From Lachnospiraceae bacterium (GTDB lineage Bacteria > Bacillota > Clostridia > Lachnospirales > Lachnospiraceae), in contig JAFRYE010000045.1 of assembly GCA_017441265.1 (NCBI GenBank), forward strand, positions 1-36,095: a DNA stretch of 36,095 nt, given 5' to 3'. This document shows, piece by piece, positions 1 through 35,793 of the stretch; positions within the stretch are counted from its first letter, which is position 1, and the number at the start of each line of letters is the position of its first letter. Below the pieces are notes generated by a model, which was given only the letters and a program-made list of their open reading frames with translations, did no database searches and was not told the DNA's origin. Made by a program: the position numbers and the translations under genes.

Positions 1-1206
1 CTCGCGTTCCTTTTCCTTCTCTTTTCTGCGGCGCTCTTTCTCTTTATTCTTGTCTTTCTTCTTCGAATTCTTGTCGGTAAATACCGTCTCCGTCGCAGCA
101 GGCGCTTCCTTCGCCGCCTCTACCGCAGCTTCGGTCGCTGCTTCCACGGACTCTGCGGACGCCTCGAGTTCCTTTCTCACGGCTTCCTTCTTCTCGCGGG
201 CAGCCTCCCATGCGGCGTCGCGCTCCTTGCGCTCTTCCTCTTCCTCGGCGTTGCGCAGGAATGCATCAAGATCGGTCGGGTTGGTGCTCTTCACCGACTT
301 CGGACGGGTTGTGGAAATAACGCCTGCAGCATTTTCCTCGGCACCGTCCTTCGCATCTTTATTCTTATCTTTGTTCTTGTCCTTCTTGCGATCCTTGCGA
401 TCTTTATCCTTGTCTTTGTTCTTATCCTTATTCTCTTTTACGTTGTCTTTCGCTTTATTTCTGTCGTCCTTCTCGTTCTTCTTATCCTTCTTGTCTTCCG
501 GCTTCTTCTCCGCCTTGACATCCTTCGTGGCTGCAACCTTGTTTGCATAATCCAACTCGTACTCTCTGTCGAGGATCGGATCATTCAGGCGGCTGCAGAG
601 ATGCAAAATGGCAGTCGGAATACCGACTATAAGCGTAACGACAAAAACAAACGGAATTGCTTCCCAAAACTTCATCGGTGCAGTCGAGTGATAAATAATC
701 GAAACGAGTGCCAGCATAATTGTCGCAACGACTGCGGCGATAATGGAGATACCGCTTTGAACCTGATCTCTGCGAAGGTTTTCAAATCCGGCAATACCTT
801 CGTAGCAGGCCAGAGCGATAAGGATTGCCACCAAAGCAAGAAGAACTGCCGCAACAAAATACGAGATTCCGAGAACGGCACTGAGTTCTTTATCCGAGAA
901 CGGACCGCCTAAAGCAAACATGATCGGAATACATCCGAGGCCGAAGACAATACCGGCTGCGGACACCCAGCGACTGAACTTCGGACGCATACCGATGCGG
1001 GAACATAACGCATAAATGATTCCTGTCGCAGCAAACATCACATAAGTAGCCACGCGGCACTTGGCCATCCAGGAGCCCTCTCCCTTAAGTCCTCCCGTTA
1101 CAGCAAGGAGCACGATCAACCCGATTGCAATCACCGCCTCAGCGATACCTGCGATAAATACTCCTTTGCAGCACAACTCAGTCTTTCTGTCCGGATACGC
1201 CTTCAT
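1..1206 (-). CDS. Six-helix membrane protein with Lys/Asp/Glu-rich cytoplasmic tail (partial, 3' end outside window)
   Basis: The frame is open from an ATG at 1206 to the left edge (402 codons, no stop). The start follows a G-rich GGGGGTAGTGAGG sequence and overlaps the upstream gene by 29 bp, so the two are translationally linked. About six hydrophobic segments are visible near residues 14-38, 52-70, 80-99, 109-135, 151-172 and 182-204. From about residue 228 the protein becomes extremely charged, with Lys-Asp/Lys-Asn-Lys runs near 262-290, an Ala/Glu-rich helical stretch, and another Lys/Arg/Glu run at the window edge. I recognise no family. The tail could bind RNA or acidic partners on the inner membrane face, or act as a spacer; this is inference. 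The gene is real because the membrane-protein pattern and codon use are coherent throughout. Confidence 0.8.
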   Translation of the reverse strand, partial: MKAYPDRKTELCCKGVFIAGIAEAVIAIGLIVLLAVTGGLKGEGSWMAKCRVATYVMFAATGIIYALCSRIGMRPKFSRWVSAAGIVFGLGCIPIMFALGGPFSDKELSAVLGISYFVAAVLLALVAILIALACYEGIAGFENLRRDQVQSGISIIAAVVATIMLALVSIIYHSTAPMKFWEAIPFVFVVTLIVGIPTAILHLCSRLNDPILDREYELDYANKVAATKDVKAEKKPEDKKDKKNEKDDRNKAKDNVKENKDKNKDKDKDRKDRKKDKNKDKNKDAKDGAEENAAGVISTTRPKSVKSTNPTDLDAFLRNAEEEEERKERDAAWEAAREKKEAVRKELEASAESVEAATEAAVEAAKEAPAATETVFTDKNSKKKDKNKEKERRRKEKEKERE

Positions 1207-1816
1207 CCTCACTACCCCCTTCGGTATTTGTTTCGGCACTGGCTTTCTTGCGCTCGCCGCCCGGCCCTTTGAGCTTGGCCGCGAGCATCTTCAATCCTTC
1301 GATCAAAAAATCCTTCGTAACTATTCCTCCGTTCCATCCGCCGTAGTCCAGCTCCTGAATGTAGAACCGGTCCCCGAGGTCGACGGAACGCTCCAGCAGA
1401 GCAAGCGACGCCTGCTCAAAATACTCGATCAGCTCGTCCTGCGTTATCGGCATTTCAATTGACGACATTGCGCGCGAAAGGCGGTTCCAGAATTGCCGGC
1501 TCGACCGGCTGCCGCCGCTCTTGGGAAGTTCGGTGAACAATTCCCACAGATAGTGCGTCCCGCGCTCCAGCGGAAACAGAAACGGAACCTCGGCGTCGAG
1601 TGCGTCCAGAGCGGGTCCCGCGATATGGAAAATGTACGACGCGTCATAGCGCCCGCCGTCCGCCGGTTCGGCGTCCGCGGCGTTGCACTGGATTGCTTCG
1701 AACCGGTTGAAATCCCAGTCCGGATAAAACTTTTTCGCACATCGCTCGATCACCGCACAGGAGCGCTCCTCCAAAATCAGGAGGCTCATGTCCAATTTTT
1801 TTCTCGGAAAAGACAT
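1178..1816 (-). CDS. Hypothetical soluble protein, 212 aa
   Basis: I do not recognise the family. The sequence reads as a soluble mixed alpha/beta protein. It has no signal peptide or membrane segment, an aromatic- and acid-rich middle (FPLERGTHYLWELF around residue 85), and a polar Glu/Lys/Gly-rich tail from about residue 185. I take ATG 1816 as the start. A TTG two codons upstream is possible, but the best SD-like stretch (GGATAGGAACGG) suits the ATG. It is the first gene behind the promoter at 1918-1946 and overlaps the membrane-protein gene downstream, so it may be that protein's cytoplasmic partner. That link is inference from gene order only. Confidence 0.7.
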   Translation of the reverse strand: MSFPRKKLDMSLLILEERSCAVIERCAKKFYPDWDFNRFEAIQCNAADAEPADGGRYDASYIFHIAGPALDALDAEVPFLFPLERGTHYLWELFTELPKSGGSRSSRQFWNRLSRAMSSIEMPITQDELIEYFEQASLALLERSVDLGDRFYIQELDYGGWNGGIVTKDFLIEGLKMLAAKLKGPGGERKKASAETNTEGGSEDEGVSGQKD

Positions 1817-1858
1817 TGGCAACCGTTCCTATCCGTTCAGATTGTCGTCGCGTTCTAC

Positions 1859-1873
1859 TTTCGTAGTACGAAA
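1859..1873. promoter_or_regulatory. 15-bp inverted repeat, candidate operator
   Basis: TTTCGTA G TACGAAA is a perfect 7+1+7 inverted repeat about 38 bp downstream of the predicted minus-strand transcription start and 43 bp before the start codon. Its position would suit a repressor. No regulator gene lies next to it, and the binding protein is unknown. Confidence 0.35.
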
Positions 1874-2271: not shown

Positions 2272-4098
2272 ATGCGTACGTTTCGTTCTGTCCCTGCCGT
2301 GAAGGCAGGCCTTTTTCTCGCACTTTTCTTCGCTCTGGCGCTCTTTACCGCCTGCACCAAGGTGAACAATTCCGCCGGCAATTCCTCGGAGCCCACGCCT
2401 ACCGTGACACCCGAAGGGCCGACGTCGACGCCCACGCCCACCGTCCGGCTCGACGTTTCGCAGATTGATTACTCGAAGGCCGAGGTGGTCGGCGATGCGC
2501 CGGAATTCTCGAGGCCGGGCTCATTTTACGAAGAGGGCTTTGAGCTCATCATCCGCACGGAAAAGCCCTGCGTTATCTACTACACGGAAAACGGCCGCGA
2601 GCCGGACACGTCCGCCAGCTCGATCCGCTACGAGGGTCCGATTTCGGTGGAGGCAAAGAGCGGGGATTACCCGAAGGCATATGTGATCAAGGCGAAGGCA
2701 TTTTACGAGGACGGGACAGTGTCCCCGACGGCGGCGCACACGTATTTCGTTGCCGAGGGCATCACGACCCGGTTCACGGACTCTTCCGAGAAGCTGTTCA
2801 TCGTCAGCCTGATCGGCGAACACGGCGACTTTCTGGGCGGCCCGAGCGGCATTCTCTACCGCGAAAACTATAAGACCCGCGGCGACGCCAGCGAGCGCCC
2901 CGCCCATATCGAAATTCTCGATGCGGCAGGCAACCTTGTGGTCAGCCAGTTCGGCGGCGTGCGCGTCTACGGCGCCTACTCCCGCCGCAACGAGGTGAAG
3001 TCGCTGAAGCTCTTTGCCCGCAAATCCTACGGATCCGGCATCGGCAAATTCAAATACGATTTCTTTGGGACACCGACCACCGCAGGCGAGACTGTCAACT
3101 CCTACGACAAGCTCGTGCTTCGCAGCTACGGCAACGACTGGCAGTTTGCGTTCCTGCGCGACGAGCTCAACCAGCGCCTCATTGCCAAATCCGGTTTCCC
3201 GTTCTACGAGGCCGTGGTTCCCGCGATCGTGTATCTCAACGGGTCGTTCTACAACTTCGTGTGGATGCACGAGAGCTACTGCGACACGTACTTCAAGCAG
3301 AAGTTCCCGTCCGAAACCCTGCGGGGCGATTTCGTCGTCATCGGAGGGACGGAGACGAAAAAGTCGCCCGATGCCGATGAAAATGACGTTGCCGAGTGTG
3401 AGGAGTTCAACGCCGCCTACGACGAGCTGATCAAGCTCGACCTGACCGACGACGCAAGCTTCCGGAAGCTCACCGAGTTTCTCGACGTGGAAAATTATCT
3501 CGACTACTACGCGTTCAACGTCTTCGTGTGCAACGCCGACTGGCCGCACAACAACTACAAGGTCTTCCGCTACTACGCCGACGAGTCCGGCCTCTACGGG
3601 GAAGGCGTCTACGACGGCCGCTGGCGCTGTCTGCCGCACGACATGGACTACTGCTACAACATCTACAGCAGCCCGAACGAATGCACCGCCAACGTCAATT
3701 ACATCAAAAAGAAACTCACAAAAGTCGGCGACCAGCGCTACTCGCCGCTGTTTACGAATCTCATTGCCCGCGAGGATTGCCGCAACTACTTCATCAAAAA
3801 GTACATGTCTCTGGTGAACGGGGCATTTTCCGTGCAATCCGTCAACGAGGAGCTGGACGCCATGGCGGCCGAGCAGGGCAGAGAGCTCGGGCCTTACATC
3901 GAGTCCATGAAGAAGACTTACAACACCGGCGGCTGGGGCTGGGGCGGCGGTTCGATCTGGACCAGCCTGGACAATGTGGAAAATTCCCGCAAAAACATCC
4001 GCAACTATGTCACCGAGCGCGTGCAGCTTGCGGTATCTCAGCTCGCGGAAGCATTTGATCTGACGGAGGCCGAAATCAACGCCATCGCCCGGAATTGA
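2272..4098 (+). CDS. CotH-family lipoprotein with chitobiase-like beta domain
   Basis: Family knowledge: CotH proteins are atypical protein kinases, first known from spore coats and common in secreted clostridial proteins. Seen here: a lipoprotein signal ending LALFTAC (Cys28), a Thr-Pro linker (about 44-62), then a chitobiase/hexosaminidase C-terminal-like beta domain (about 81-160, with YYTENGREPDTSAS). The CotH region follows, with GGVRVYGAYSRRNEVKSLKL (about 224-243) and the metal-binding-type HDMDYC near 456-461. It ends in a helical tail with a Gly/Trp-rich loop (GGWGWGGG). At 608 aa the length suits a multi-domain CotH protein. The protein is probably tethered to the outer membrane face. 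ATG 2272 lies 42 nt from the strong SD; an ACG at 2236 is spaced better, so the start may be 12 codons upstream. An ABC exporter gene follows 25 bp downstream. Confidence 0.85.
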   Translation: MRTFRSVPAVKAGLFLALFFALALFTACTKVNNSAGNSSEPTPTVTPEGPTSTPTPTVRLDVSQIDYSKAEVVGDAPEFSRPGSFYEEGFELIIRTEKPCVIYYTENGREPDTSASSIRYEGPISVEAKSGDYPKAYVIKAKAFYEDGTVSPTAAHTYFVAEGITTRFTDSSEKLFIVSLIGEHGDFLGGPSGILYRENYKTRGDASERPAHIEILDAAGNLVVSQFGGVRVYGAYSRRNEVKSLKLFARKSYGSGIGKFKYDFFGTPTTAGETVNSYDKLVLRSYGNDWQFAFLRDELNQRLIAKSGFPFYEAVVPAIVYLNGSFYNFVWMHESYCDTYFKQKFPSETLRGDFVVIGGTETKKSPDADENDVAECEEFNAAYDELIKLDLTDDASFRKLTEFLDVENYLDYYAFNVFVCNADWPHNNYKVFRYYADESGLYGEGVYDGRWRCLPHDMDYCYNIYSSPNECTANVNYIKKKLTKVGDQRYSPLFTNLIAREDCRNYFIKKYMSLVNGAFSVQSVNEELDAMAAEQGRELGPYIESMKKTYNTGGWGWGGGSIWTSLDNVENSRKNIRNYVTERVQLAVSQLAEAFDLTEAEINAIARN

Positions 4099-4123: not shown

Positions 4124-5908
4124 ATGAAATGGATCTTAAAGTATATGGGGAGGTACCGGCTTCGCGTCGCACTGACCATGAGCGTCAAGTTCTTCGGGAC
4201 GATCGGTGAACTTGTGCTCCCCTTTCTGCTCGAGTACATCATCGACGATGTCGTTCCCGACGGCAAGACCGGTCCCGTCGTGTTCTACGGGCTTTTGATG
4301 ATCCTCACGGCCGTCGTCGTCCGCACGCTGAACGTCTCGGCCAACCGCCGTGCGACTTCCGTGGCGCGCGACTGCATCCGGGATCTGCGGCACGATCTCT
4401 TCACGACGACGACCAGGCTCACCGGCTCGCAGTTTGACTACGTCACGCTGCCGTCGCTCATTTCCCGAATGACCTCCGACACCTATAACGTTCAGAACTT
4501 CATCGGCATGATCCAGCGAATGGGCGTCCGCGCGTGCATTCTTCTTCTGGGAAGCATCATGGTGTCGTCCCTCATGGATCCGTTCCTTGCGCTTGTGCTG
4601 CTTTGCATGGTTCCGGTTATGGCCGGCATCATCCTGTTCATCTCTGTCAAAGGTATCCCGATGTACCGCGCCGTCCAGGAGAAAGTGGACACTATCACGC
4701 GCGTGCTCCGGGAAAATATCACCGGCATCCGCGTCGTGAAGGCTCTCTCCCGAGAGCCGCATGAGACCGAGAGATACGCAAAAGCCAACGATGACCTCAC
4801 CTCCACCGATCTGCGAACCGGCATCACGATGGCGATCCCGAACCCCGTGATGAACCTGTGCCTGAACATCGGTCTCACGCTGGTCATCATATTCGGCGCG
4901 CGCCGCGTAAACGCAGGCGTCATGGCGCCCGGCGTCATCCTTGCGTTCCTCACCTACTTCAACATGATCCTTCAGGCGATCATGGGTATGAACCGAATCT
5001 TCATTCAGTCGACGAAGGCCGCTGCCTCGGCCAACCGTATCGGCGAAGTTCTGCTGCTTGCGGACGACCAGCCGCCCGTTCTTCCCGCGGACGAAGCCCA
5101 CACGCTGCCCGAGTCGATGCGCGACCAAAACGGCCGGATGCCTTTGGTGGTGTTTGACAACGTCTCCTTCTCCTACCCGGTGCTGAGCGATGCGAATGTC
5201 GATGACACAAGGGAAAATGCGATCAGCGGAATCTCCTTCTCGCTCCGCCGCGGTGAGCGGCTCGGCGTCATCGGAGCCACGGGATGCGGCAAGACGACGC
5301 TTCTCAATCTGTTGATGCGCTTTTATGACACGGAGCATGGCCAGGTATTCTACGACGGCCGCGACGTGCGCACCTACGCTCCGGGAGACCTGCGCCGTCC
5401 GATGAGCGTCGTTTTCCAAAACGACACGATCTTCGCGGACACGCTGGAATCTAATATCAAGTTCGGCCGCGAAGTCACCGACGACGAGATGCGTCAGGCT
5501 GCGGAGGACGCCAACATCGCAACGATGATCGAGTCCCAGGCCGAGCGCTACCAATACGCCGCGACGAAAGCCGGTGCGAACTTAAGCGGCGGCGAGAAGC
5601 AGCGCATCCTCATCTCCCGCGCGCTGGCCGGCCATCCGGACCTGCTTCTCCTCGACGACGCCTCAAGCGCCCTCGATTACAAGACCGACGCGGCGCTTCG
5701 CCGCGCCATCCGGGAGCATTATCCCGACACGACCACGATCACGATCGCGCAGCGCATAAGCTCCGTGATGAGCATGGACCGCATCCTCGTGATGGAGAAC
5801 GGACAGATGCTCGGCTACGGCACCCACGAGGAGCTCCTCGCGACATGCGAGGTCTACCGCGATATTTACATTTCACAGACGGGAGGTGAGGCAAATGCCA
5901 CTGCTTAG
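4124..5908 (+). CDS. ABC exporter half-transporter, degenerate ATPase subunit
   Basis: A 594-aa type IV ABC exporter with a six-helix membrane domain (about 1-310) fused to a nucleotide-binding domain. Walker A is GATGCGKTT (about 383), the signature is LSGGEKQR (about 486) and Walker B is LLLLDDASSALD (about 507). The residue after the Walker B Asp is Asp instead of the catalytic Glu, and the switch His is replaced by Gln in TIAQRIS (about 540). These two substitutions are the known marks of the degenerate partner in heterodimeric exporters such as TM287/288. A strong SD (AGGAGG) precedes the ATG. The gene overlaps the next exporter subunit by 14 bp, so the two are co-translated. The substrate is unknown: annotation as multidrug exporter would be a default, and the surrounding envelope genes suggest an envelope-related cargo (inference). 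Confidence 0.95.
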   Translation: MKWILKYMGRYRLRVALTMSVKFFGTIGELVLPFLLEYIIDDVVPDGKTGPVVFYGLLMILTAVVVRTLNVSANRRATSVARDCIRDLRHDLFTTTTRLTGSQFDYVTLPSLISRMTSDTYNVQNFIGMIQRMGVRACILLLGSIMVSSLMDPFLALVLLCMVPVMAGIILFISVKGIPMYRAVQEKVDTITRVLRENITGIRVVKALSREPHETERYAKANDDLTSTDLRTGITMAIPNPVMNLCLNIGLTLVIIFGARRVNAGVMAPGVILAFLTYFNMILQAIMGMNRIFIQSTKAAASANRIGEVLLLADDQPPVLPADEAHTLPESMRDQNGRMPLVVFDNVSFSYPVLSDANVDDTRENAISGISFSLRRGERLGVIGATGCGKTTLLNLLMRFYDTEHGQVFYDGRDVRTYAPGDLRRPMSVVFQNDTIFADTLESNIKFGREVTDDEMRQAAEDANIATMIESQAERYQYAATKAGANLSGGEKQRILISRALAGHPDLLLLDDASSALDYKTDAALRRAIREHYPDTTTITIAQRISSVMSMDRILVMENGQMLGYGTHEELLATCEVYRDIYISQTGGEANATA

Positions 5909-7664
5909 CAACAAGATCTCCCGCCCGAAAGACACCAAGCGAACGCTTCTTCGTCTTTTGTCCTACCTCTCCGTATTCTGGATCCCGATGGCCGCAGCGC
6001 TTATTTTGTCGCTGGGCGCCAATCTTTTGGCGCTCGCCGGCCCGAAGCTGGCAGGACGCGCCATCGACGCCGTAAGCCTCGGCAAGGGGAAGGTGGATTT
6101 TGCGACCGTCGCGTACTACACCAAATTGATGATCGTCATCTACGTGGCTTCCGCTGTCTGCTCCTTCGTCCTCTCGGTTTTGATGATGAAGGTCGGACGC
6201 TCTGTCGGCAAGAAGCTCCGCAAGGAAGTCTTCGACAAATTGATGCGCACTCCGGTCAGCTACTTCGACACGCACCAGACCGGCGACATCATAAGCCGCG
6301 TCTCCTATGACATCGACGTCATCAGCAACTCGCTCTCCACCGACGTGGTGCAGATACTGTCGAGTATCGTCACGGTAGTCGGCGCGTTCATCATGATGCT
6401 TACCGTCTGCCCTCCGCTTGTTTTGGCAGTGCTGATCACGATCCCGCTGTCCGTCTTCTACACTCGTTACATCACAAGAAAAGCGCGCCCGCTTCTCTCG
6501 AAACGCTCCGCAATGTACGGTGAGATGAACGGCTACTCCGAGGAAATGTTCTCCGGCCAGAAGACCATTCAGGCGTATGCGCACGAAGACCTCACGATCG
6601 CGGACTTCGACGTCATCAACGAGCGGACATGCGAGGCATTTTACGACGCCGACTACATCGCTTCGAAGATCGGCCCGTCCATCAGCTTCATCAACAACCT
6701 GTCGCTGGCGTTGACCGCGATGTTCGGATCCCTCTTCTACATGAACGGCGTCATCAACCTCGGCCAGATCTCGTCCTTCGTGCTGTACACCCGCAAGTTC
6801 TCCGGGCCGATCAACGAGGTCGCCAACATCGCGAACGAGCTTCTCTCCGCCCTGGCGGCCGCCGAGCGCGTGTTCAACCTGCTGAATGAGCCGGACGAAG
6901 TTGCCGACCTGAAGGATGCCGAGGAACTTTCCGAAGTCCGCGGCGAGGTCGAGCTCGAGGACGTCAACTTCTCCTATCGTCCGGAGAAGCCGATCCTTCG
7001 GGATATCAACCTGCACGCCGATGCCGGGAAAATGTTTGCGATCGTCGGGCCGACCGGTTCCGGCAAGACGACCATCATCAACCTTTTGATGCGCTTCTAC
7101 GACCCGGTTTCCGGGCAGATCTATGTGGACGACGTTCCGCATGAGCATTTTACGATGGAATCCCTGCGCCGCGCGTACGCGCTCGTGCTGCAGGACACCT
7201 GGGTCTTCCACGGCACCATCTATGACAATATCGCCTACGGCCGGATCGGCGCCACCCGTGAGGAGGTCATTGAGGCCGCTAAAGCCGCTCACATCCACCA
7301 TTACATCATGTGTCTGCCGCAGGGCTACGACACCGTGATCACCGAGGACGGCGGCAACATCTCGAAGGGACAGAAACAGTTGCTCACCATCGCCCGCGCG
7401 ATGCTCTACGACGCGAAGATGCTCATCCTCGACGAGGCCACCAGCAACGTCGACACGCGCACGGAGCGCCGGATCCAGAAGGCGATGCGCACGCTCATGA
7501 AAGACAAAACCTGCTTCGTCATCGCTCACCGCCTCTCGACGATCCAAAACGCCGACACCATCTTAGTCATCGGCGACGGCACCGTCATCGAGTCCGGCAC
7601 GCACAGCGAGCTGATGGAGAAGAAAGGACGTTATTACAGCCTGTATCAGGCTCAGTTTGAATAA
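5895..7664 (+). CDS. ABC exporter half-transporter, catalytic ATPase subunit
   Basis: The 589-aa partner of the preceding exporter. The start is ATG 5895 after GGAGGTGAG; a GTG three codons upstream lies inside the ribosome-binding site and is unlikely. The membrane domain fills about residues 1-310. Walker A is GPTGSGKTT (about 384), Walker B is LILDEATSNVD (about 508, canonical Glu present) and the switch is IAHRLST (about 541). The signature is changed from LSGGQ to ISKGQKQ (about 487). In heterodimers the degenerate site joins the Walker motifs of one subunit to the signature of the other. The altered signature here and the Glu-to-Asp change in the neighbour therefore fall in the same composite site. 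This supports an obligate heterodimer with one hydrolytic site. Confidence 0.95.
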   Translation: MPLLSNKISRPKDTKRTLLRLLSYLSVFWIPMAAALILSLGANLLALAGPKLAGRAIDAVSLGKGKVDFATVAYYTKLMIVIYVASAVCSFVLSVLMMKVGRSVGKKLRKEVFDKLMRTPVSYFDTHQTGDIISRVSYDIDVISNSLSTDVVQILSSIVTVVGAFIMMLTVCPPLVLAVLITIPLSVFYTRYITRKARPLLSKRSAMYGEMNGYSEEMFSGQKTIQAYAHEDLTIADFDVINERTCEAFYDADYIASKIGPSISFINNLSLALTAMFGSLFYMNGVINLGQISSFVLYTRKFSGPINEVANIANELLSALAAAERVFNLLNEPDEVADLKDAEELSEVRGEVELEDVNFSYRPEKPILRDINLHADAGKMFAIVGPTGSGKTTIINLLMRFYDPVSGQIYVDDVPHEHFTMESLRRAYALVLQDTWVFHGTIYDNIAYGRIGATREEVIEAAKAAHIHHYIMCLPQGYDTVITEDGGNISKGQKQLLTIARAMLYDAKMLILDEATSNVDTRTERRIQKAMRTLMKDKTCFVIAHRLSTIQNADTILVIGDGTVIESGTHSELMEKKGRYYSLYQAQFE

Positions 7665-7687
7665 TTCGGGGAGATTTGAGCGGAAGT

Positions 7688-9808
7688 ATGGACAGCGAAT
7701 TAACTGCGGATTCCGGGCGGATGACCGTCCGGAATCTTGTGCAACAATTGGTCATCCCGGTTGCGCTGCTTTGGGATGAACTGGTTTTTCACGCCTATAT
7801 CAACAAGGGCTTTCAAAATGCATCTCTGGGATTCCTCGTGCTTTTTGCGCTGGGATTCGGATTTTTATGCTCCGCGATCACGGGGAAGCTGGGCCGCAGG
7901 GCCACTCCGATCGCGAACGGAGTTATCCTCGCCGCAGTCACCGGCTGGTTTCTGATCCAGGCCGTAAGCCACGGGATGCTCCAGTCGTATCTCACGCTCG
8001 CCCTCACGGAAAATACCGAGGAAGCCGCGGATTTCAGGGGAGATATCTTCACCTGCCTGCTCCGCCGGACGCCCCTCGCGCTCCTTTTGCTCGTTCCCGT
8101 GGCGGTTTACGTCATTTTCCTTATAAAGAAAGTGATCGTGCACTCTTCAGTCCGCGGCAAAGTCGTCGTGATCTCGGCGCTTCTCGCCGTTGAATGCTTC
8201 CTGATCGCCGGGATCGCGCTCATCAGCGACCACTGCAGACAGAACGGTCAGTACAATATGTTTTTCAAGGATTGGGAAAATGACCGCGGCGTCACGAACA
8301 TGGGCGTCTGCATCGGCTTCGTCCAGGATCTGCGTGAGCGGATTACCTACGACCCGCTGGAGATCGGCGACATCGATGTCGTGACGATCCCCACCGTAAA
8401 CCCGGTTCTTCCCGTTGCCATCACAAGCACACCGAAGCCGTCTCCGACTCCGACGAACACGCCGACGCCCGGCCCCACACGAGCTCCGGAGAACACGCCG
8501 ACGCCGACACCTTCCCCGTCCCCGACACCGACTCCCGTCGACCGGTCGCCGCACTCTCTCAGAATTGATTTTCAGGGACTGGCGGATACGGAGAAGAACA
8601 AGACCATCAAAACGATCCATCAATATTTTGCCAATGAGACTGCCACCGCAAAGAACGAGTACACCGGTCTTTGCAAGGATTTCAACCTGATCGTCATCAC
8701 CGCGGAGTCCTTCTGCCAGCTGGCGGTGGACGAGGAGTTGACACCGACGCTGTACAAGCTTGTGCACAGCGGATTTGTCTTCGAGAACTTCTACACGCCG
8801 AAGTGGCAGAACAACACCACCGACAGCGAGTACACCATATGCACCGGGCTCCTGCCGGACACGAAGGACGCCAAGAGTTTCGCCAAATCGGCAACCAACA
8901 CAATGCCCCTCGCGCTCCCTCCGATGTTCAAGGCCCTCGGCTACACGGCGCGCGCGTTCCACAATCACGATTACAAATACTACGAGCGCAACAAGACGCA
9001 CCCGAACCTCGGCTACGAATTCATCGCCGTCGGCAACGGTCTGGAGATCACGAAGCAGTCCAACGAGTCCGACATCGAGATGATGGAGAAAGCCATCCCG
9101 ATGTTCATCAACGACGATCATTTTCTGGCGTACTTCATGACCATGAGCGGGCATTCCCCGTACTCCTTCGGCAACGCGATCTGCAAGAAATACAAGGATC
9201 TGGTGAAGGGGCTTCCCTATACCACCGCCGGCAAATGCTACCTCGCCTGCAACATCGAGCTCGACCGCGCTCTCGCCTACCTGATCGACGAGCTCACCAA
9301 GGCCGGAAAACTGAACAACACGCTCATCGTGATGACCGGGGATCATTTTCCGTATGCGATGTCAGAGGAGGAGCTGAACGACCTCGCCGGCCACACCATC
9401 GAGAAGGAGTTCGAGCGCTTCGAGAACCACTGCATCATCTGGAGCGGCGCTTTCACGGAAAATGTCGTCGTGAGCAAGGCCTGCTGCAGTCTCGATCTGA
9501 TGCCGACCATCCTAAACCTCATGGGCGTCGAGTACGACTCCCGCCTGTACATGGGCCACGACATGCTCTCGGACACCCCCGGCTTCGTCCAGCTGCGAAA
9601 CGGCAGCATCGTCACGGACTACATCCGCTACAGCGCGTCGACCGGCAGGACAACGTGGCTTGTGGACGTGAATCTCACCGACAAGGAGAAAAAAGCGTAC
9701 GTCGATTCCTGCAAGAGCACTGCCAAGACCAAGCTGAACATCTCCCGCGCCATCCTGAACAACAACTACTACAAATACATTCAGGAACTTCTGCCGTGGA
9801 TGCAGTAG
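7688..9808 (+). CDS. LtaS-like membrane sulfatase / phosphoglycerol transferase with Pro-Thr linker
   Basis: A 706-aa polytopic enzyme of the lipoteichoic acid synthase / alkaline phosphatase superfamily. Five hydrophobic segments (within about residues 17-185) precede an unusual Thr-Pro-rich linker (about 245-285) and an extracellular sulfatase-fold domain. Metal and nucleophile motifs match LtaS: Glu in VITAESF (about 338), the candidate catalytic Thr in NTTDSEY (about 378) and Asp-His in MTGDHF (about 551). By family it would transfer phosphoglycerol or a similar group from lipid to an envelope polymer; the exact substrate cannot be read. ATG 7688 is my choice: a TTG at 7676 sits only 2 nt from GGGGAG. 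It follows the ABC pair by 23 bp and probably shares their transcript, which suggests joint export and modification of a surface polymer (inference). Confidence 0.88.
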   Translation: MDSELTADSGRMTVRNLVQQLVIPVALLWDELVFHAYINKGFQNASLGFLVLFALGFGFLCSAITGKLGRRATPIANGVILAAVTGWFLIQAVSHGMLQSYLTLALTENTEEAADFRGDIFTCLLRRTPLALLLLVPVAVYVIFLIKKVIVHSSVRGKVVVISALLAVECFLIAGIALISDHCRQNGQYNMFFKDWENDRGVTNMGVCIGFVQDLRERITYDPLEIGDIDVVTIPTVNPVLPVAITSTPKPSPTPTNTPTPGPTRAPENTPTPTPSPSPTPTPVDRSPHSLRIDFQGLADTEKNKTIKTIHQYFANETATAKNEYTGLCKDFNLIVITAESFCQLAVDEELTPTLYKLVHSGFVFENFYTPKWQNNTTDSEYTICTGLLPDTKDAKSFAKSATNTMPLALPPMFKALGYTARAFHNHDYKYYERNKTHPNLGYEFIAVGNGLEITKQSNESDIEMMEKAIPMFINDDHFLAYFMTMSGHSPYSFGNAICKKYKDLVKGLPYTTAGKCYLACNIELDRALAYLIDELTKAGKLNNTLIVMTGDHFPYAMSEEELNDLAGHTIEKEFERFENHCIIWSGAFTENVVVSKACCSLDLMPTILNLMGVEYDSRLYMGHDMLSDTPGFVQLRNGSIVTDYIRYSASTGRTTWLVDVNLTDKEKKAYVDSCKSTAKTKLNISRAILNNNYYKYIQELLPWMQ

Positions 9809-9850: not shown

Positions 9851-9876
9851 CGGAAAATGAAGCGCGTCATTTTCCG
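9851..9876. repeat. Perfect inverted pair of the GGAAAATG octamer
   Basis: CGGAAAATGA (9851-9860) and TCATTTTCCG (9867-9876) form a perfect 10-bp stem around a 6-base loop (AGCGCG). It lies between two plus-strand genes and has no T-tract on its 3' side. It is therefore not a standard intrinsic terminator, though it could attenuate transcription or protect RNA ends. Each arm is a copy of the octamer dispersed through the window. Confidence 0.75.
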
Positions 9877-14651: not shown

Positions 14652-14680
14652 ATTATATACGATTTCGCGGAAAATGTCGC
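14652..14680 (-). promoter_or_regulatory. Promoter of the DUF2130-NA37-M18 operon
   Basis: On the minus strand a perfect TATAAT (14652-14657) stands 17 bases after GCGACA (14675-14680, 4 of 6). A GGAAAATG octamer (14669-14676) overlaps the spacer and the edge of the -35, so any protein binding it could affect this promoter. Confidence 0.65.
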
Positions 14681-14964
14681 TACAATTTAGGGGAATATGG
14701 CCGCCTGCATTATCTTCACTTTCGATAACTCTTCTCCTTGCTAACTTCTCTACCAGTAATTACCGCATATTCCTAATTTGTCCATACTTCACCGAACAAC
14801 AAAAGAGGCTGTCGCTTCGCGATAATCCGCTTTGCAACAGCCTCGTCAATACACTGCCAAATGTTTCTGAAGAACAAATTAATGAATTACTTCATTGCTT
14901 CTTGTTCCCCCTTAGTTACGACATATTACCCTGCTAAATTGCTTCCGCTTTATAAATCGTATCC
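14681..14964. other. AT-rich intergenic stretch
   Basis: Between the DUF2130 promoter and the InlB-repeat gene lies AT-rich sequence without a convincing gene. It holds one terminator (14805-14844). Open frames here lack ribosome-binding sites and any recognisable product. Confidence 0.5.
14805..14844 (-). terminator. Likely terminator of the large InlB-repeat gene
   Basis: Arms GAGGCTGTTGC and GCGACAGCCTC (11 bp, one wobble) with a loop that itself folds (AAGCGG/CGCGAA region) are followed by TTTTGTTG on the minus strand. It lies about 120 nt past the stop codon, which is longer than usual. Confidence 0.65.
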
Positions 14965-19403: not shown

Positions 19404-19464
19404 AATGAATAACCAATTATTCGATTTCCTTCTTCCAAAACAGTATATTTTTCCTCCGAAAAAT

Positions 19465-19494: not shown

Positions 19495-19567
19495 AGTGTT
19501 AAACCCCTATATTTCTATTCAGACCCCCACTGCCTTTGTTCCCACCGGCAAATACAATCTATGACAA

Positions 19568-23093: not shown

Positions 23094-23146
23094 GACGCGC
23101 ACCTCCTACGAAGTCTTCACCGCATTTTCCGTCACAAAGATTAAAT

Positions 23147-28100: not shown

Positions 28101-29366
28101 ATGACGATCCGTGAAGCAATGCTGACATCGCTGCGGGAAATCCTTCTCGCCTGGCTGATGATCCTTTTCCTTCTGCAGCTTTATTCCTGCCTGCAGCTGC
28201 GGAACAACAAAAAGCTGAAAAAACTCGCCGTGCCGTCATTGTTGCAATTCCTCGCGCTCAGCGTACTGATGACAATGATGCTCGACGGCATTTTCCACTA
28301 CAACGACTCCTACTACGTACGCACCTGGCCGGGCGTTGTCGAAGCACTCTTCGCCCTGCCGGCGGCGCTTCTGATCGGCTACGAGGTCCTCTCGACGGCG
28401 TACCTTCTGTTCACCCGGCACATGGTGCGGAGCTTCCGAGCGCAGAACCCGACGGAGGGCGCGGTCAAAGAGACTCTCGATCTGCTCCCGGCGGGCATCG
28501 CCTTTGCCGAAGAAAACGGCAATGTGGTGTTGACCAACCTCGCCATGAGCGGTGTGGCGCAGGCGATGACCGGCCGGATCCTTATGAACACGGAACCTCT
28601 TCGGGACGCCTGCGGCGAGGATCCGGCGACCGGCAACCGGCTGGCGGCATTTCCGGACGGATCGCAGGTCTGGCAGGTTCATTTTGCGAAGATCACGGAA
28701 CATGACACACCGTATCTTCAGCTGACCGCAACCGACGTCACGCTGCAGGTGCGCGCCAACGAGGAGCTGCAGAGCAAGCACGAGCGGCTGCAGAAGATAC
28801 GCCGCCGTCTCGACATTTACAACCGGCAGGCCGAACGCATCATCATCGCGCAGGAGCTTCTGAACGCGCGGATGCAGGTGCACAACGAGACCGGCCATGT
28901 CCTTCTGGCGAGCCGCCACTGCCTCGACCACCCCGGCAGCATCGACGAGGCCAAGCTGCTTTTGCTGCTGCGGAATACCAACGCGAGCCTTCTCAAGGAG
29001 TACGAGAACGATGACACCGAGCGCGATCCGCTGATCGACGCGATGGAGATGGCCGAGTCCATCGGCGTGACCGTCAATCTGGCCGGAGCGCTTCCCTCGG
29101 ACGGCGTTCGCCGCACCATCCTTGCCGCCGCCGTCAGCGAGTGCGCCACCAACACGCGCAAGCACGCGGACGGCAACTACTTAAACGTCACCGTCGAGGA
29201 TGCCGACGACCGGTTCCGCTTCCGCATCACGAGCATCGGGCCGAAGGCCGGGACGGTCATCAACGAGTCCGGCGGTCTGGCATCGCTTCGCTCCCTTGTG
29301 GAAAATGTCAACGGCGAGATGCAGATCACGGCGGATTCGGAGCTCACGCTGACAATTTCTTTGTAG
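28101..29366 (+). CDS. Membrane histidine kinase, NarX/DesK-like ATPase type
   Basis: 421 aa from ATG 28101 (GGTGAG just upstream, overlapping the end of the 7TM gene). About three hydrophobic segments lie in residues 8-105. A PAS-like domain follows (about 130-215), then a long helix (about 215-265) with the likely phosphoacceptor His in QVHNETGHVLL. The HATPase part has SECATNTRKHA (N box) and a short lid, ESGGLASLRSLVENVNG, of the kind that pairs with LuxR-type regulators. The usual Asp-x-Gly of the second ATP motif reads SIGPKAG. This is close to variants common in this subfamily, but it should be checked. The LuxR-type regulator gene 105 bp downstream is the expected partner. Confidence 0.82.
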   Translation: MTIREAMLTSLREILLAWLMILFLLQLYSCLQLRNNKKLKKLAVPSLLQFLALSVLMTMMLDGIFHYNDSYYVRTWPGVVEALFALPAALLIGYEVLSTAYLLFTRHMVRSFRAQNPTEGAVKETLDLLPAGIAFAEENGNVVLTNLAMSGVAQAMTGRILMNTEPLRDACGEDPATGNRLAAFPDGSQVWQVHFAKITEHDTPYLQLTATDVTLQVRANEELQSKHERLQKIRRRLDIYNRQAERIIIAQELLNARMQVHNETGHVLLASRHCLDHPGSIDEAKLLLLLRNTNASLLKEYENDDTERDPLIDAMEMAESIGVTVNLAGALPSDGVRRTILAAAVSECATNTRKHADGNYLNVTVEDADDRFRFRITSIGPKAGTVINESGGLASLRSLVENVNGEMQITADSELTLTISL

Positions 29367-30198: not shown

Positions 30199-32958
30199 AT
30201 GAAGAAGAAAGGAAACCATCTTACGCGAATAGCAGTCATTTTCCTTTGCGCGCTTATGGTCACAACTCTGACGACAATGTTCAGACCCGGTTTCGTCACG
30301 GCGTACGCAGAGGAAGACGAAGAGGAAATGCCGGACAAAGGTACTCTCTGCGGCATTGACGCACGTGTGATCGGATCCCCGAAAAATGTATCCGCCAACG
30401 AGCCCTGGACCGGTAGCTACCTCTGGTTCGGCAAAACCATGGGGAACCCCGTCAAATACCGTATTCTGTCACCGTACAACGTCAGTTACGGCTCCCGAAC
30501 GATGTTCGTGGACTGCGATTCCGTAATAGGTGCTCAACTTTTCTATTACAACAACTATATCCCAAGCACCGATTATGCTCACAATGATTGGACGCACAGT
30601 TATCTGAGAAAACATCTGAATTCAGCTTTTTTGAACAGCAACAACTTTACCACGGCTGAAAAAGAAGCCCTTGCAGAAAGCACCCTCTCCGGTCGCGAAT
30701 TGCGCGTCGGCTCCGGCAACTTCTATGTTTCCTCCGAAACAGCGGCCGCCTATCGGTACAGGGTTCCCCTTACGGGCGAAAAGGTCTTTGTTCTGGACGT
30801 TGAAGAAGCTTCCAACCCGGCTTACGGTTACAACCAAGCAACTACAGCTCTTTGCCGACAGAAGAATACTCTCCCGAATTTAAACAATCGGTCCGAGTGG
30901 GTGTTGCGCAATGCCTACTACGAGGAGGACGAGAGTTCCGCGAATCGGGTAGCATATAACGTCGGGACAACACTGATGCCTGCATCGGTTGAGTCTGCCA
31001 AATGTTTCAGTCCGGCCTTCAACATTGATCTCTCCTCCATAGTCCTTGTCTCTGACGATCCCGACACGTACGGTGAATACGGAACCGAGTACAAATTGAC
31101 TCTCGTGGACGAGGCGATCAACGTAAGTCTCACCGGGGACACACCGCCGTTACTGACAGCCGACGGAGTACAGATATACTACACCGTCAAAGGGTTCAAT
31201 GCGGGAAAAGTTAATCGTCTTTCCGTTCTGATCATTAACAAGCCGTACACTCCCGGAAACACAAACGATGCCGACTTCCGGTACTACGAAGAATTGACCC
31301 TCCAAGGCACCTCAAGCTTCACGAAGGGTCTCGGCACATTCCGGCTTCCGTCAAACTACCCTGTAGATCAGTGGGGACGGACGTATCACGTGTACCTCCT
31401 TGCCGAAGACGTCAACGGACTTCATGAGACCGATTACTGCAGCGCTCCTCTGGAGTTAGTTCTTTCCGACGAACCGATCGTGACCTTTCACCCGAACGGC
31501 GGCGTTTTCGAGGACGACATCTACCTCACGGTGCAGGGAACGCAGATTCAGATCCCGGCCCTTAGCCCCACCAAAGCCGGATATTGGTTCTGCGGCTGGT
31601 CTCCGCTTTTAAACGCTTCCTTCGGAACGCTCCAGAAGGGTTCGACGTATACTCCCTCGGGAGATGAGAGGCTCTTCGCCATCTGGAAAGAACTGGATTA
31701 CACCGGCACCACCCTGACCGCCGCCTCGGAAGAATCTGTTTCTTTCTCGGAAGGAACTGCGATTCTGCCGTATACACTCTCCGGTCCGGATGCCTCCCGG
31801 GTATCCCGTGTGGGTGTCTGGATCCTCGACAAGACCTTCCGTACCGACAACGCAAACAATGCGAAACTGCTTTACGCCGAAACCTTCAAGATCAACTCCG
31901 CAAGCGGAACCATATCCTTTGCTCTGCCTACCGGCTATTCTGCCTATGATTGGGGAACCGAGTATCAGGTATACCTTTCGGCCGTCGGCTCTGCGGGAAC
32001 TCCCGTAAGCAATATGGCTCCGCTCCATCCGAAGTGGGCGCATACGCTGTCCTTTGACCTGAACGGCGGAACCTCCGGCGCACCCGCAGACGTTTACGGC
32101 GTTACCGTCACGATCCCGAAATCAAATCCGATCCGCGACGGCTACTGGTTCCTCGGCTGGGCTTTGGTACCTGACGCAACCACCGCCCATCTAAAGAGCG
32201 GTTCCGACGTATCTCTGCTTCGGGATACGGTTGTTTACGCCGTGTGGAAGCAGAAGTCGGTCACCAACTGTAAACTCATGTTCAACCTCAACGGCGGCAC
32301 CGGAACAGCTCCTGCAACGATCACCGCTGCGTCCGGCACCGCTGTGACGGTACCGAAAGCCTCCGTCTCCCGTACCGGTTACTATTTCCTGGGCTGGTCG
32401 ACCTCTTCGACCGCTACGACCGCAACCTACAAGAGCGGTTCCGTGATCACACTGACGAAGGACATGACTCTGTACGCCGTGTGGAAGGCTGCGTCCGTCA
32501 CCAAATACACGCTTTCCTTTGACCGCAACGGCGGCTCCGGCAACGCTCCTGCAAAGATCACGGCGGCGTCCGGAACCACGGTCACCATCCCCAAATGCTC
32601 CGTATCCCGCGAAGGCCACTACTTCATGGGCTGGTCGACAACCCGCGGCGGCGCGGTCGCTTACAAGAGCGGTGACACGCTGAAATTAACGAAAGACACC
32701 GTTCTCTACGCCGTCTGGAAAGCGAAAAATGTCACCCTGCAATACAACGTAAACGGCGGCTCGGGAACGACGCCCGCCAAAGTGACAACAACCTACGGCT
32801 CAACCGTCACCGTACAGAAGAGCTCCGTCTCCCGAAGCGGATACTGGTTTCTCGGCTGGTCGACGTCCGCAACGGCAACCACCGCGACCTACAAGACCGG
32901 CAGCACGCTCACGCTCAAGGATAACGTGACACTGTACGCTGTCTGGAAGAAACAGTAA
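30199..32958 (+). CDS. Secreted DUF6273 and InlB-repeat protein
   Basis: 919 aa with a signal peptide (MKKK start, cleavage near AYAEE, about residue 37). The N-terminal third resembles DUF6273 (about 45-290), with YLWFGK, WTHSYLRKHLNSAFLN, WVLRNAYYEED and FSPAFNIDLSS. Then a beta-rich domain of about 90 residues occurs twice (about 315-415 and 525-615). Both copies have LSVLIINKPY- or VGVWILDKTF-like strands and a DWG/QWG-T-Y-x-VYL motif, and an InlB-type repeat separates them. Four more InlB repeats close the protein (about 615-919), ending LYAVWKKQ with no sorting signal. GTGAGGT precedes the ATG. It probably sits at the cell surface or is released. Placement after the 7TM/kinase/regulator genes suggests the system controls it (inference). 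Confidence 0.85.
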   Translation: MKKKGNHLTRIAVIFLCALMVTTLTTMFRPGFVTAYAEEDEEEMPDKGTLCGIDARVIGSPKNVSANEPWTGSYLWFGKTMGNPVKYRILSPYNVSYGSRTMFVDCDSVIGAQLFYYNNYIPSTDYAHNDWTHSYLRKHLNSAFLNSNNFTTAEKEALAESTLSGRELRVGSGNFYVSSETAAAYRYRVPLTGEKVFVLDVEEASNPAYGYNQATTALCRQKNTLPNLNNRSEWVLRNAYYEEDESSANRVAYNVGTTLMPASVESAKCFSPAFNIDLSSIVLVSDDPDTYGEYGTEYKLTLVDEAINVSLTGDTPPLLTADGVQIYYTVKGFNAGKVNRLSVLIINKPYTPGNTNDADFRYYEELTLQGTSSFTKGLGTFRLPSNYPVDQWGRTYHVYLLAEDVNGLHETDYCSAPLELVLSDEPIVTFHPNGGVFEDDIYLTVQGTQIQIPALSPTKAGYWFCGWSPLLNASFGTLQKGSTYTPSGDERLFAIWKELDYTGTTLTAASEESVSFSEGTAILPYTLSGPDASRVSRVGVWILDKTFRTDNANNAKLLYAETFKINSASGTISFALPTGYSAYDWGTEYQVYLSAVGSAGTPVSNMAPLHPKWAHTLSFDLNGGTSGAPADVYGVTVTIPKSNPIRDGYWFLGWALVPDATTAHLKSGSDVSLLRDTVVYAVWKQKSVTNCKLMFNLNGGTGTAPATITAASGTAVTVPKASVSRTGYYFLGWSTSSTATTATYKSGSVITLTKDMTLYAVWKAASVTKYTLSFDRNGGSGNAPAKITAASGTTVTIPKCSVSREGHYFMGWSTTRGGAVAYKSGDTLKLTKDTVLYAVWKAKNVTLQYNVNGGSGTTPAKVTTTYGSTVTVQKSSVSRSGYWFLGWSTSATATTATYKTGSTLTLKDNVTLYAVWKKQ

Positions 32959-33161: not shown

Positions 33162-33779
33162 ATGGACGCTAAGGCTGCCGCAAGAAAAACCGCCGCAACG
33201 CGGGAAGGAATCAAAACCGCGCTGCTCCGATTGATGGAGAAGAAACCGTACCACGATATCAGTGTTCCGGACATCGTCCTGGAGGCGTCGACCGCGCGCT
33301 GCACGTTCTATCGGCATTTTCCGACGAAGGACGAGGTGCTGCTCGCGTGCTGTAAAGACCGTTTCGAAGGTCTGTACCGCCGCATGCAGGAAGAGCCGTC
33401 GTACACGTTCCACGACACAAGTCTGGGGTACTATATGTACTGGCAGGAGCATTTGCCGTTTTTGCAGTTGCTGCAAAAGCAGGATCTTCTGTTCTTCTTC
33501 ACGAAAAATCTCGACCGTTTCCTCTATGACGTTACCGGTCGGGCCGGCGATGAGGACGAGGCGTCTGCCCCGCCTGCAAAGCTTGTGTACCATTTCTTCT
33601 GCAGTATGTCCGCGATGAGCGGAATCCTTTTGTACTGGCTGAACACGGGCTGCCGCGAATCCGCGGAGCAGCTTGCGCAATACTATGTTTCGTTCCTCGC
33701 CGAAGGCAGCGAGGGCGATGACGATTGCCGCTACTTCCGCGAGCACCACGAATACCCGTTTAAGCATACATATGTGTAA
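33162..33779 (+). CDS. TetR/AcrR-family transcriptional regulator
   Basis: 205 aa behind AAAGGGAGGA. The N-terminal helix-turn-helix (about 14-60) has the TetR signature pattern ISVPDIVLEASTARCTFYRHFPTKDEV. The C-terminal ligand and dimer domain (about 75-190) is helical with several aromatic clusters and no recognisable ligand. Members usually repress their own gene and neighbours until a small molecule binds. Two palindromes at the promoter (33072-33083 and 33110-33133) are candidate sites. The three-repeat lipoprotein gene starts 37 bp downstream, probably on the same transcript, so it is the likeliest regulated partner. Confidence 0.92.
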   Translation: MDAKAAARKTAATREGIKTALLRLMEKKPYHDISVPDIVLEASTARCTFYRHFPTKDEVLLACCKDRFEGLYRRMQEEPSYTFHDTSLGYYMYWQEHLPFLQLLQKQDLLFFFTKNLDRFLYDVTGRAGDEDEASAPPAKLVYHFFCSMSAMSGILLYWLNTGCRESAEQLAQYYVSFLAEGSEGDDDCRYFREHHEYPFKHTYV

Positions 33780-33816: not shown

Positions 33817-35697
33817 ATGAGAAAAGCAGTATCAGCACTCGTTCGCCGCAGCAAGCGGCAAATGGCGTTTCTGCTCGCTGTTCTGATGGTCGTCTCTCTC
33901 CTCGCGGCATGCGACAACAAGCCGAAGCCCCGCGATCCGAAAGACGAAATGACGTCCGTAACGCCGACGAACACGCCGACGCCTACCGCAACGACAGCTC
34001 CGACGGACGAACCGACGCCTACCGCAACGGAGGCGCCGACACCGACCGAAACACCGACGCCGTCGCCCACCGCGGAACCGAGTCCCGAGCCGACTCCGGA
34101 ACCTACCGAAGTCCCGTCGCCCACAGAGGAGCCGCTCCCTACCGAGGAGCCTTCGCCGGAACCGACGGCTGAGCCGAGTCCCGAGCCGACAGCCGTTCCG
34201 ACAACCCCTGTGACACCGACCGTCACACCGACGCCGACATCTACCCCGACTCCGACCGCTACGCCGAAGCCGACGGCTACGCCTACGAACACTCCGATAC
34301 CGACGCCTTCCTTCGGTCGCAATATATCCGATTACTTCGGCACCTGGTACGCGAAATCCCTCGTCGGCGCCGAAGGTGATGAGGTCGACTGCGCGGAAGA
34401 TCCCTTCTGCGACTATCGGTTGTTTATCAACGATTCCGAGGTCGTGCGTGTGCACACCGATTCCCACAATCTGAACGATCCTCTGGCTACCAGAGATACC
34501 TTTGAGGTTCGCACCTCATTTTCCGAATCGGAAAAAGCTCTCTACAAATCCTGGAACTACGGCGTGATCGATTACCTTTCCGAACCGACGGACCTTTCCA
34601 AGGGCCACATCGTGCTCTCCTGCACAAGCGAGCATTACGAAAATGCGCTGTTCATCATTGACGCGCAGGCGGACGGCTCGCTGTACACTCAGTTCGTCTA
34701 CGTTATGGACAACGGCAGCTTCCCGATCTTCGTCGAAGCGGTATATACGAAAACGCCCGCCTATCCCATGGGATACTACTACGAGGACTACGTCGGCACC
34801 TGGATCCTCAAGTCCAGCGCGGCTTACTACTGCGACGCATTTGAAGTAGACGACGAGGATCCGTATGACGTCCGCCTTGTGATCCGCGACGACGGCACTC
34901 TGGAGTATGTAACCGTTTCCGGCGATCACTCCAAAGTAACCAACGTCCTGCATTTTAAGCTTCGCGATTCCTTCTCGGAATCCGAGATCAACACTTACAA
35001 GAAGTGGGACAAGGCCGGAATCACGACCTACGACAACGAAATGCAAGGCTGGGCCGCCGATGTTGCCTCGGATGTATCGAACGCAGCGCAGGGCAAACTT
35101 GTATTCTGCTGCACCGACAAGAACAACTCCAACCTTCTGATGGTTCTCTCATACGATGATTATTTCCATCAGTTGGACATGGATTTCTTCAGTTATGACA
35201 GTTCCCGCAAGCGCGAAGACATCTACTTCTACACCTTCTCCAGATTCGACGAGAGCTCGCCGTACAGCTACACTCGCGGCCGCTATTTCGCGGATTACTT
35301 CGGCACCTGGGAGGCTAAGGAAATCCGCCGCGACGGTGAGACCAAGAACACCGTGATCACGGATCCGTCCTCGATGGCGAAGCTTCGGATCTGCACGAAC
35401 ATGACCGCTCAGATCCTGTTCAGCAACCGTGCCGTATCCTACACGCTGCGCACGAAGAAGAGTTCTTCCGATCCTTCCTGGTACGCCGACCACAACCTTC
35501 AGGACGTGGTTACCGACTACTCCAAGGGGCGCCTCGTGTTCACCTGCGTTGACAAGGACTATTATCCCGGCTCGCTGCTCGTCGTTGACTACAACGGCGA
35601 CGGAACCGTCACCACGATCCAGTACGGAAAGAACGGCAGCAACGTCCTCTACATCCCTTACGAGAAGTTCGGCCGCCAGACCGGTCTTCCCAGATAA
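33817..35697 (+). CDS. Lipoprotein with Pro-Thr linker and three lipocalin-like repeats
   Basis: 626 aa. The signal peptide ends SLLAAC (Cys32, lipobox), so it should be lipid-anchored outside the cell. A long Thr-Pro/Glu-Pro linker (about 45-165) holds the functional part away from the membrane or through the wall. Three related domains of about 130-165 residues follow, each opening with Y[FV]GTW (about residues 172, 326 and 494). Each then has a beta-rich pattern with a KG[HKR][IL]V[FL][ST/C]C strand, where C is followed by T. The GTW opening and strand pattern recall lipocalin-like small-molecule-binding barrels, but this is a fold guess without a diagnostic match. GAGAGGA precedes the ATG. 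The upstream TetR gene suggests ligand-controlled expression (inference). Confidence 0.8.
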   Translation: MRKAVSALVRRSKRQMAFLLAVLMVVSLLAACDNKPKPRDPKDEMTSVTPTNTPTPTATTAPTDEPTPTATEAPTPTETPTPSPTAEPSPEPTPEPTEVPSPTEEPLPTEEPSPEPTAEPSPEPTAVPTTPVTPTVTPTPTSTPTPTATPKPTATPTNTPIPTPSFGRNISDYFGTWYAKSLVGAEGDEVDCAEDPFCDYRLFINDSEVVRVHTDSHNLNDPLATRDTFEVRTSFSESEKALYKSWNYGVIDYLSEPTDLSKGHIVLSCTSEHYENALFIIDAQADGSLYTQFVYVMDNGSFPIFVEAVYTKTPAYPMGYYYEDYVGTWILKSSAAYYCDAFEVDDEDPYDVRLVIRDDGTLEYVTVSGDHSKVTNVLHFKLRDSFSESEINTYKKWDKAGITTYDNEMQGWAADVASDVSNAAQGKLVFCCTDKNNSNLLMVLSYDDYFHQLDMDFFSYDSSRKREDIYFYTFSRFDESSPYSYTRGRYFADYFGTWEAKEIRRDGETKNTVITDPSSMAKLRICTNMTAQILFSNRAVSYTLRTKKSSSDPSWYADHNLQDVVTDYSKGRLVFTCVDKDYYPGSLLVVDYNGDGTVTTIQYGKNGSNVLYIPYEKFGRQTGLPR

Positions 35698-35712
35698 CAC
35701 ACCGAAACGTCA

Positions 35713-35750
35713 AATGCCCGCAAGAGTTCATCGCTCCTGCGGGCATTTTT
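35713..35750 (+). terminator. Terminator of the three-repeat lipoprotein gene
   Basis: A 10-bp perfect stem (AATGCCCGCA / TGCGGGCATT) with T5 following, 16 nt past the stop codon. Confidence 0.88.
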
Positions 35751-35793
35751 GTGTCTTTCACCTCTTCTTCGGAAAATGACCCCGACAATGTAA

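Follow-up and report, generated by a model that had tools for sequence, protein, structure and literature searches.

Short words that recur very frequently in bacterial genomes fall into three classes, namely Chi sites, uptake sequences and HIP, as outlined in PMC4390886. Discrimination of self DNA at uptake is said in PMC12616744 to be limited to Neisseriaceae and Pasteurellaceae. The octamer GGAAAATG described here shares with the DNA uptake sequence (DUS) of Neisseriaceae, whose receptor is ComP, a continuous short word, very many copies, permissive intergenic regions, dialect-like variants with a conserved inner part and the presence of ComEC, as far as that system is outlined in PMC3630211 and PMC12616744. 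However, its sequence is unrelated to the DUS and its host belongs to the Bacillota instead of the Proteobacteria. Further differences are that inverted pairs are few, that PilB is not always present and that a receptor for GGAAAATG and its role in uptake are putative. Like the USS of Pasteurellaceae, outlined in PMC12616744 as a core of about 9 bases in two dialects, GGAAAATG is short and genome-wide, but its sequence is again unrelated and it has no AT-rich flanking segments within 20 bases on either side. With the cyanobacterial HIP1 (GCGATCGC) it has in common that it is an iterated octamer with lineage variants and an unsettled function, whereas HIP1 is palindromic and contains methyltransferase sites and GGAAAATG is non-palindromic (PMC4390886, in outline). 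Finally, it resembles the Chi sites of RecBCD/AddAB in being short, over-represented and non-palindromic, and departs from them in lacking co-orientation with replication. In titles and the opening lines of abstracts, no paper gave GGAAAATG as a whole word, and those on uptake sequences or competence in Lachnospiraceae, Clostridia or Firmicutes made no such motif apparent.

The window, that is, the whole analysed stretch of 36,095 nucleotides, contains 27 copies of GGAAAATG, 12 on the plus and 15 on the minus strand, spanning 330..35778. This agrees exactly with the hand count of the sequence-only reading. The over-representation claimed there also stands, while its size of about 30-fold comes down to about 16-fold against dinucleotide shuffles of the window (mean 1.65 copies, sd 1.23, largest 5). 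GGAAAAT followed by A, C or T, put at about ten occurrences, recounts to 5 + 6 + 6 = 17. The copies are located as follows:

330..337, minus strand, copy 1 of GGAAAATG
1627..1634, plus strand, copy 2
3824..3831, minus strand, copy 3
5212..5219, plus strand, copy 4
7027..7034, plus strand, copy 5
8113..8120, minus strand, copy 6
8275..8282, plus strand, copy 7
9344..9351, minus strand, copy 8
9457..9464, plus strand, copy 9
9852..9859, plus strand, copy 10, paired in inverted orientation with copy 11 (9852-9875)
9868..9875, minus strand, copy 11, inverted partner of copy 10 (9852-9875)
10729..10736, minus strand, copy 12
11934..11941, minus strand, copy 13
14045..14052, minus strand, copy 14
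14669..14676, plus strand, copy 15
20342..20349, plus strand, copy 16
21756..21763, minus strand, copy 17
21982..21989, minus strand, copy 18
23123..23130, minus strand, copy 19
26822..26829, plus strand, copy 20
27532..27539, plus strand, copy 21
28289..28296, minus strand, copy 22
29300..29307, plus strand, copy 23
30237..30244, minus strand, copy 24
33315..33322, minus strand, copy 25
34517..34524, minus strand, copy 26
35771..35778, plus strand, copy 27

Copies 10 and 11 face each other inside an 11-base inverted repeat (9852-9875), which starts 43 bases past the end of an LTA-synthase-like ORF (7676-9808, labelled by a match below the curated cut-off) and is not followed by a T run. The longest stretch of the window free of the word, 14677-20341, covers ORF 14965-19416, which encodes a 1483-aa protein with TIGR02543 repeats; ORFs 24804-26117 and 30199-32958 of the window match the same repeat family.

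The host genome (G000; 2,585,061 bases in 79 contigs) belongs to a genus of Lachnospiraceae and probably to a gut or rumen bacterium. It carries 881 + 803 = 1684 copies of GGAAAATG, a density of 0.65 per kb or one per 1.5 kb, compared with 21 + 16 = 37 copies of the reversed word as a control. Markov and codon tests in this genome covered 428 kb (or 340 kb) of the 2.585 Mb. In 428,278 sampled bases, GGAAAATG is the most enriched 8-mer, with 279 copies vs 21.1 expected from a Markov model of order 2. At order 4, 241 copies vs 54.9 expected were found in 340 kb, and the latter expectation is raised because the word itself inflates the model. Copies are spaced close to randomly in the sample (CV 0.89) and lie more densely in non-coding (1.38 per kb) than in coding DNA (0.61 per kb).

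A bias in codon pairs, amino acids or Shine-Dalgarno and start-codon context could in principle make such a word frequent; its commonest coding frame is G-GAA-AAT-G (81/210), and 3 of 241 copies have a predicted start codon at their end. Against this, coding DNA of G000 holds 210 copies vs 24.9 (sd 4.6, max 39; 23.9 in another count) in 100 shuffles that preserve each gene's protein sequence and codon usage. The excess holds in every one of the six frames, at 4.5- to 23.6-fold, and the two gene strands carry the word nearly equally (111 sense, 98 antisense). The higher density outside genes also speaks against a coding origin, as does the reversed word, which shows no excess (3 vs 5.8) and fills only 3 of the 407 positions open to it. 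These results reject codon usage, amino-acid sequence and the context of start codons as the cause, base composition fails as well, and such an origin is very improbable. The sequence-only reading had named a count near Markov expectation and an enrichment fully explained by codon-pair bias as the outcomes that would tell against it; the sampled DNA shows neither, the enrichment lying far above both, as for a DUS or USS. Overall, GGAAAATG occupies 210 of the 397 positions that the protein sequence permits (53%; 210/398 on recount), and occupancy is only slightly lower in genes with predicted membrane spans (90/191) than in others (115/189). An occupancy of 53% demands a mechanism whether or not the word serves in uptake. 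The high copy number would agree with an origin from a dispersed repeat or mobile element that left remnants carrying the word, but the flanks hold almost no information past the bases that adjoin the word and G000 has one tyrosine recombinase match; with no repeat in the flanks this source is rejected, and it is the least probable of all the origins considered. As an observation in its own right, the single recombinase match in the 2.6 Mb draft suggests that integrated mobile elements are scarce.

The immediate context of the word is biased. In the G000 sample, the preceding base is C in 161/279 copies and the following base is A or C in 213/279. Neighbours that differ by one base are enriched when the change falls at position 1 (T only, 44/16) or at positions 2, 3 and 8, for example GAAAAATG (110/21) and GGAAAATA (76/13), while changes at positions 4-7 (AAAT) leave no or weak excess, the highest being GGACAATG (21/13). 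A profile that is strict at positions 4-7 looks like DNA-binding specificity rather than random or simple decay. Inverted pairs acting as terminators are common for DUS and USS. Among the 279 copies there are 6 pairs within 20 bases, with 2.4 of any orientation expected, and four of the six are inverted (two convergent, two divergent), a small number.

Strand balance bears on functions that are read in one direction. By GC skew, 150 copies in the G000 sample are leading and 129 lagging (54% leading, n=279), as against 2430 and 979 (71% leading) for 279 anagrams of the word, a share significantly below that of the anagrams (binomial p about 7e-10). Base composition alone would give a less symmetric distribution, and the word probably acts on double-stranded DNA, neither on mRNA nor on a single strand. 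The dialect words of two other genera behave likewise (83 leading and 100 lagging in G118, 20 and 22 in G199), and GGAAAATG alone leans slightly to the leading strand in smaller samples (G005 32/23, G253 31/18, G118 25/18, G134 35/28). DUS of Neisseriaceae also occurs in both orientations. The lack of polarity argues against Chi and against KOPS/SRS (FtsK/SpoIIIE), whose strong terminus-ward polarity is found neither per contig nor by GC skew, and strand-polar functions of either kind are disfavoured. A Chi-like hotspot of recombination, unoriented and read by AddAB/RecBCD, would account for a word that is short, very frequent, non-palindromic and different between lineages. Known Chi sites, on the other hand, are mostly co-oriented with replication, and this is seen neither in G000 nor for the words of G118 and G199, which makes the hotspot quite unlikely. 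The earlier argument that strand balance speaks against a Chi- or FtsK-type polar motif, and in favour of a symmetric signature such as an uptake sequence, a HIP1-like motif or a binding site, is thereby borne out.

All 21 genus mates of G000 that were searched carry GGAAAATG, in 221 to 1763 copies. The lowest counts, in G006 (221, control 82) and G018 (257, control 57), are near background after codon shuffling (7 vs 4.4 and 4 vs 2.3). In a survey of 250 genomes of the family, its table read by eye, the word exceeded its control more than 15-fold only in G000, its mate G002, G118, G134 and G253. A survey with GGNCAATG gave at least 10-fold excess in G118 (2302 vs 162), G199 (1171 vs 83) and G230 (631 vs 62, from word counts). 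De novo searches recovered GGAAAATG and GGNAAATG in G134, GGNCAATG and GGNAAATG in G118, GAAAATGA in G253 and GGGCAATG in G199. The word assigned to each genus and the observed vs codon-shuffled counts in coding DNA are:

g1, the genus of G000: GGAAAATG; 39 vs 4.7 in the mate G005
G134: GGNAAATG; 47 vs 12.6, and 60 vs 10.7 for GG[CGT]AAATG
G118: GGNCAATG; 129 vs 19.2
G199: GGGCAATG; 23 vs 2.0
G253: GAAAATGA; 82 vs 12.7

These words thus exceed their codon-shuffled counts 3.7- to 11.3-fold. The corresponding excess in samples of 40 kb from each of 20 other genera, ten of which have PilB, is 1.2- to 1.9-fold. Observed and codon-shuffled counts in the ten with PilB are 28/23.7 for GGAAAATG and 31/23.5 for GGNCAATG; the ten that lack PilB give 42/22.6 and 58/33.8. 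None of the 20 has a comparable word of its own at this sampling, the best two-strand score being 10.0, where GGAAAATG reaches 16.7 in 40 kb of G000. The consensus GGNMAATG fits the words of g1, G134, G118 and G199 and overlaps that of G253 in part only. By analogy, the genus variants are like dialects of uptake sequences. In a LepA comparison, G118, G134, G199 and G253 do not stand out as the nearest relatives of g1, and LepA and ComEC comparisons do not group the motif genera with confidence; 4 of the 11 outside loci, G118's included, lacked a full ORF and were dropped from the ComEC tree.

Two further word families were noticed in these samples. In G018 (L028-L030), TCCTATGAAAC and its parts are over-represented, with CCTATGAA at 13 vs 0.8 in 60 kb, and may be a repeat family or another tag. 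In G253 (L136-L145), words of the TCTACAAG type lie on one gene strand only (26:0), unlike the symmetric GAAAATGA words.

At the comEC locus, individual copies turn over between species. Among ordered pairs (A to B) of seven species of the motif-rich clade, L087 included, comEC-locus sites permitted in both carry the word in B in 34/67 cases when A has it and in 33/81 when A lacks it; at another 62 sites that carry the word in A, B does not permit it. At this locus, then, abundance is kept and individual positions are not. Such turnover is not seen upstream of the type IV pilus locus, where comparisons are few (4/7 if present in A, 3/49 if not).

The competence check proposed in the sequence-only reading came out mixed. 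G000 encodes ComEC and ComEA (SLBB plus helix-hairpin-helix) as well as loci for a type IV and a Tad pilus and so has, as far as genes go, the competence machinery of a DUS or USS organism. For the type IV pilus, Pfam domains back PilB (T2SSE with MshEN), PilC (T2SSF) and, through N_methyl, 3/4 of the scanned prepilins; a second T2SSE protein adjoining PilB is called PilT by position, and a PilM-like label was assigned by eye. In the Tad locus, Pfam finds a CpaF-type ATPase, a Flp1-like pilin and two T2SSF proteins, one above and one below the cut-off. ComEC is present in 58/61 genomes (G000 and 60 relatives) and in 8/8 selected genomes of the family. In the genera examined, however, motif abundance and type IV pilus genes do not go together. 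PilB occurs in 107/250 family genomes (E <= 1e-100), G134 and G118 among them, and was not found in the motif-bearing G253 and G199, the latter assembly being 87% complete. Conversely, ten PilB-bearing genera show no comparable word in 40 kb each, and G006 and G018, of the same genus as G000, have PilB and ComEC with the motif near background.

ComEC and a CpaF-sized ATPase occur together in g1, G118, G134, G199 and G253; in G253 and G199 the search was for these two genes, and both were found. The ATPase is the only PF00437 match over the cut-off in G253 and G199, and its neighbours in G253 have T2SSF domains, as in a Tad locus. If a pilus reads GGAAAATG, the Tad pilus would be the candidate common to all motif genera examined, but a CpaF-sized ATPase occurs in motif-less genera too. 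Tad pili are reported as essential for DNA uptake in Liberibacter crescens, with Micrococcus luteus cited as the earlier case, in PMC8513845.

Loss of comEC as the reason for low motif counts is not supported: in G006 and G018, where the motif is sparse, a single open frame encodes ComEC. In G016 (L038) and G017 (L037), comEC is in two pieces, which may be real or an assembly error, and these genomes have intermediate motif counts of 374 and 807. In the five genus mates that yielded both proteins, ComEC is 37-41% identical to that of G000, while LepA is 94-96% identical, so that the uptake channel seems fast-evolving here.

One part of the genome is nearly free of the word. The longest GGAAAATG-free stretch in the G000 sample, 13,575 bp on contig C30 (L048:12952 to L049:8637), extends from pilT over all that follows of the type IV pilus locus. 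Eight permitted sites in a row stay unused there, which for G000 by itself is not significant by a hand estimate, and the depletion claim is based on several species. At 16 genus-like PilB loci (L053-L066, L079, L087), the 176,087 bases that start with pilB hold 8 copies and the 155,782 bases upstream hold 49, whereas eight loci of other genera have no such contrast (by hand sum, 8 copies in about 95 kb vs 6 in about 80 kb). Further, permitted coding sites are used at 2/48 in the pilus locus and 15/36 upstream in seven genomes of the motif-rich clade, without L087 (Fisher p 4e-5), and at 2/57 vs 11/36 in seven other loci of the genus (p 4e-4). The PilB tree puts L087 with L061, whose PilB place matches the low-motif G006; L087 was counted with the motif-rich clade for turnover, codon identity, GGNMAATG and a third count of 4/62 in the pilus locus, 16/44 upstream and 42/102 at comEC loci (p about 4e-7). 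These counts shift slightly with the gene model, and the sites share ancestry and are not independent. Codons for the same residue are identical at 57% in the pilus locus and 62% upstream (L087 included), so the pilus locus has diverged at least as far as the upstream DNA. The contrast is weaker for the broad word GGNMAATG (51 in 70,000 bases upstream vs 22 in 82,927, seven loci, L087 included), and short stretches of G118 (4 in 4.4 kb vs 12 in 6.3 kb) and G134 (4 in 6.0 kb vs 15 in 11.4 kb) show a mild deficit only. An uptake model does not predict that the type IV pilus locus should be exempt from the motif.

A word that is non-palindromic, non-polar, independent of codons and present at 0.65 per kb with dialects matches uptake sequences best, and the leading reading, with a rough probability of 0.47, is that GGAAAATG may mark DNA as self throughout the genome in the manner of a DNA uptake sequence. 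Under such a scheme, a surface DNA receptor, possibly an accessory protein or a subunit of the type IV or Tad pilus, would bind the GGAAAATG duplex in either orientation; DNA of the same lineage would preferentially be imported via ComEA/ComEC and recombined into the genome; and biased uptake with recombination (molecular drive, with or without selection) would add copies wherever the protein sequence permits. A somewhat more tentative extension is a DUS system of rumen and gut Lachnospiraceae in which one of the two pili, Tad or type IV, would read self DNA through GGNMAATG-type genus dialects, with the type IV locus itself exempt.

The chief competitor assigns the word no role in uptake. GGAAAATG would be, or contain, the target of a DNA-modifying enzyme or of an abundant chromosome-upkeep protein, and biased repair or diffuse selection would build up copies as in HIP1. 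It would share with HIP1, which PMC4390886 links to orphan methyltransferases, the phenomenology of more than 1000 copies, no strand bias and lineage-specific variants, and would account for the motif in G253 and G199, where PilB was not found. A non-palindromic 8-mer with a degenerate inner position, as seen in the relatives, is unusual for an orphan methyltransferase target. This explanation is possible and on balance doubtful.

Even with no part in uptake, GGAAAATG would be an iterated motif of large extent that calls for explanation. If the uptake-sequence reading is true, it would be the first DNA uptake sequence in a Gram-positive-type lineage, outside Neisseriaceae and Pasteurellaceae, and a third, unrelated case of self-DNA recognition, now in gut Bacillota, which would mean that the trait evolves repeatedly. 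GGAAAATG could then serve as a tag for bringing DNA into bacteria that are hard to manipulate genetically, and uncultured Lachnospiraceae would be naturally transformable, sharing genes within kin groups.
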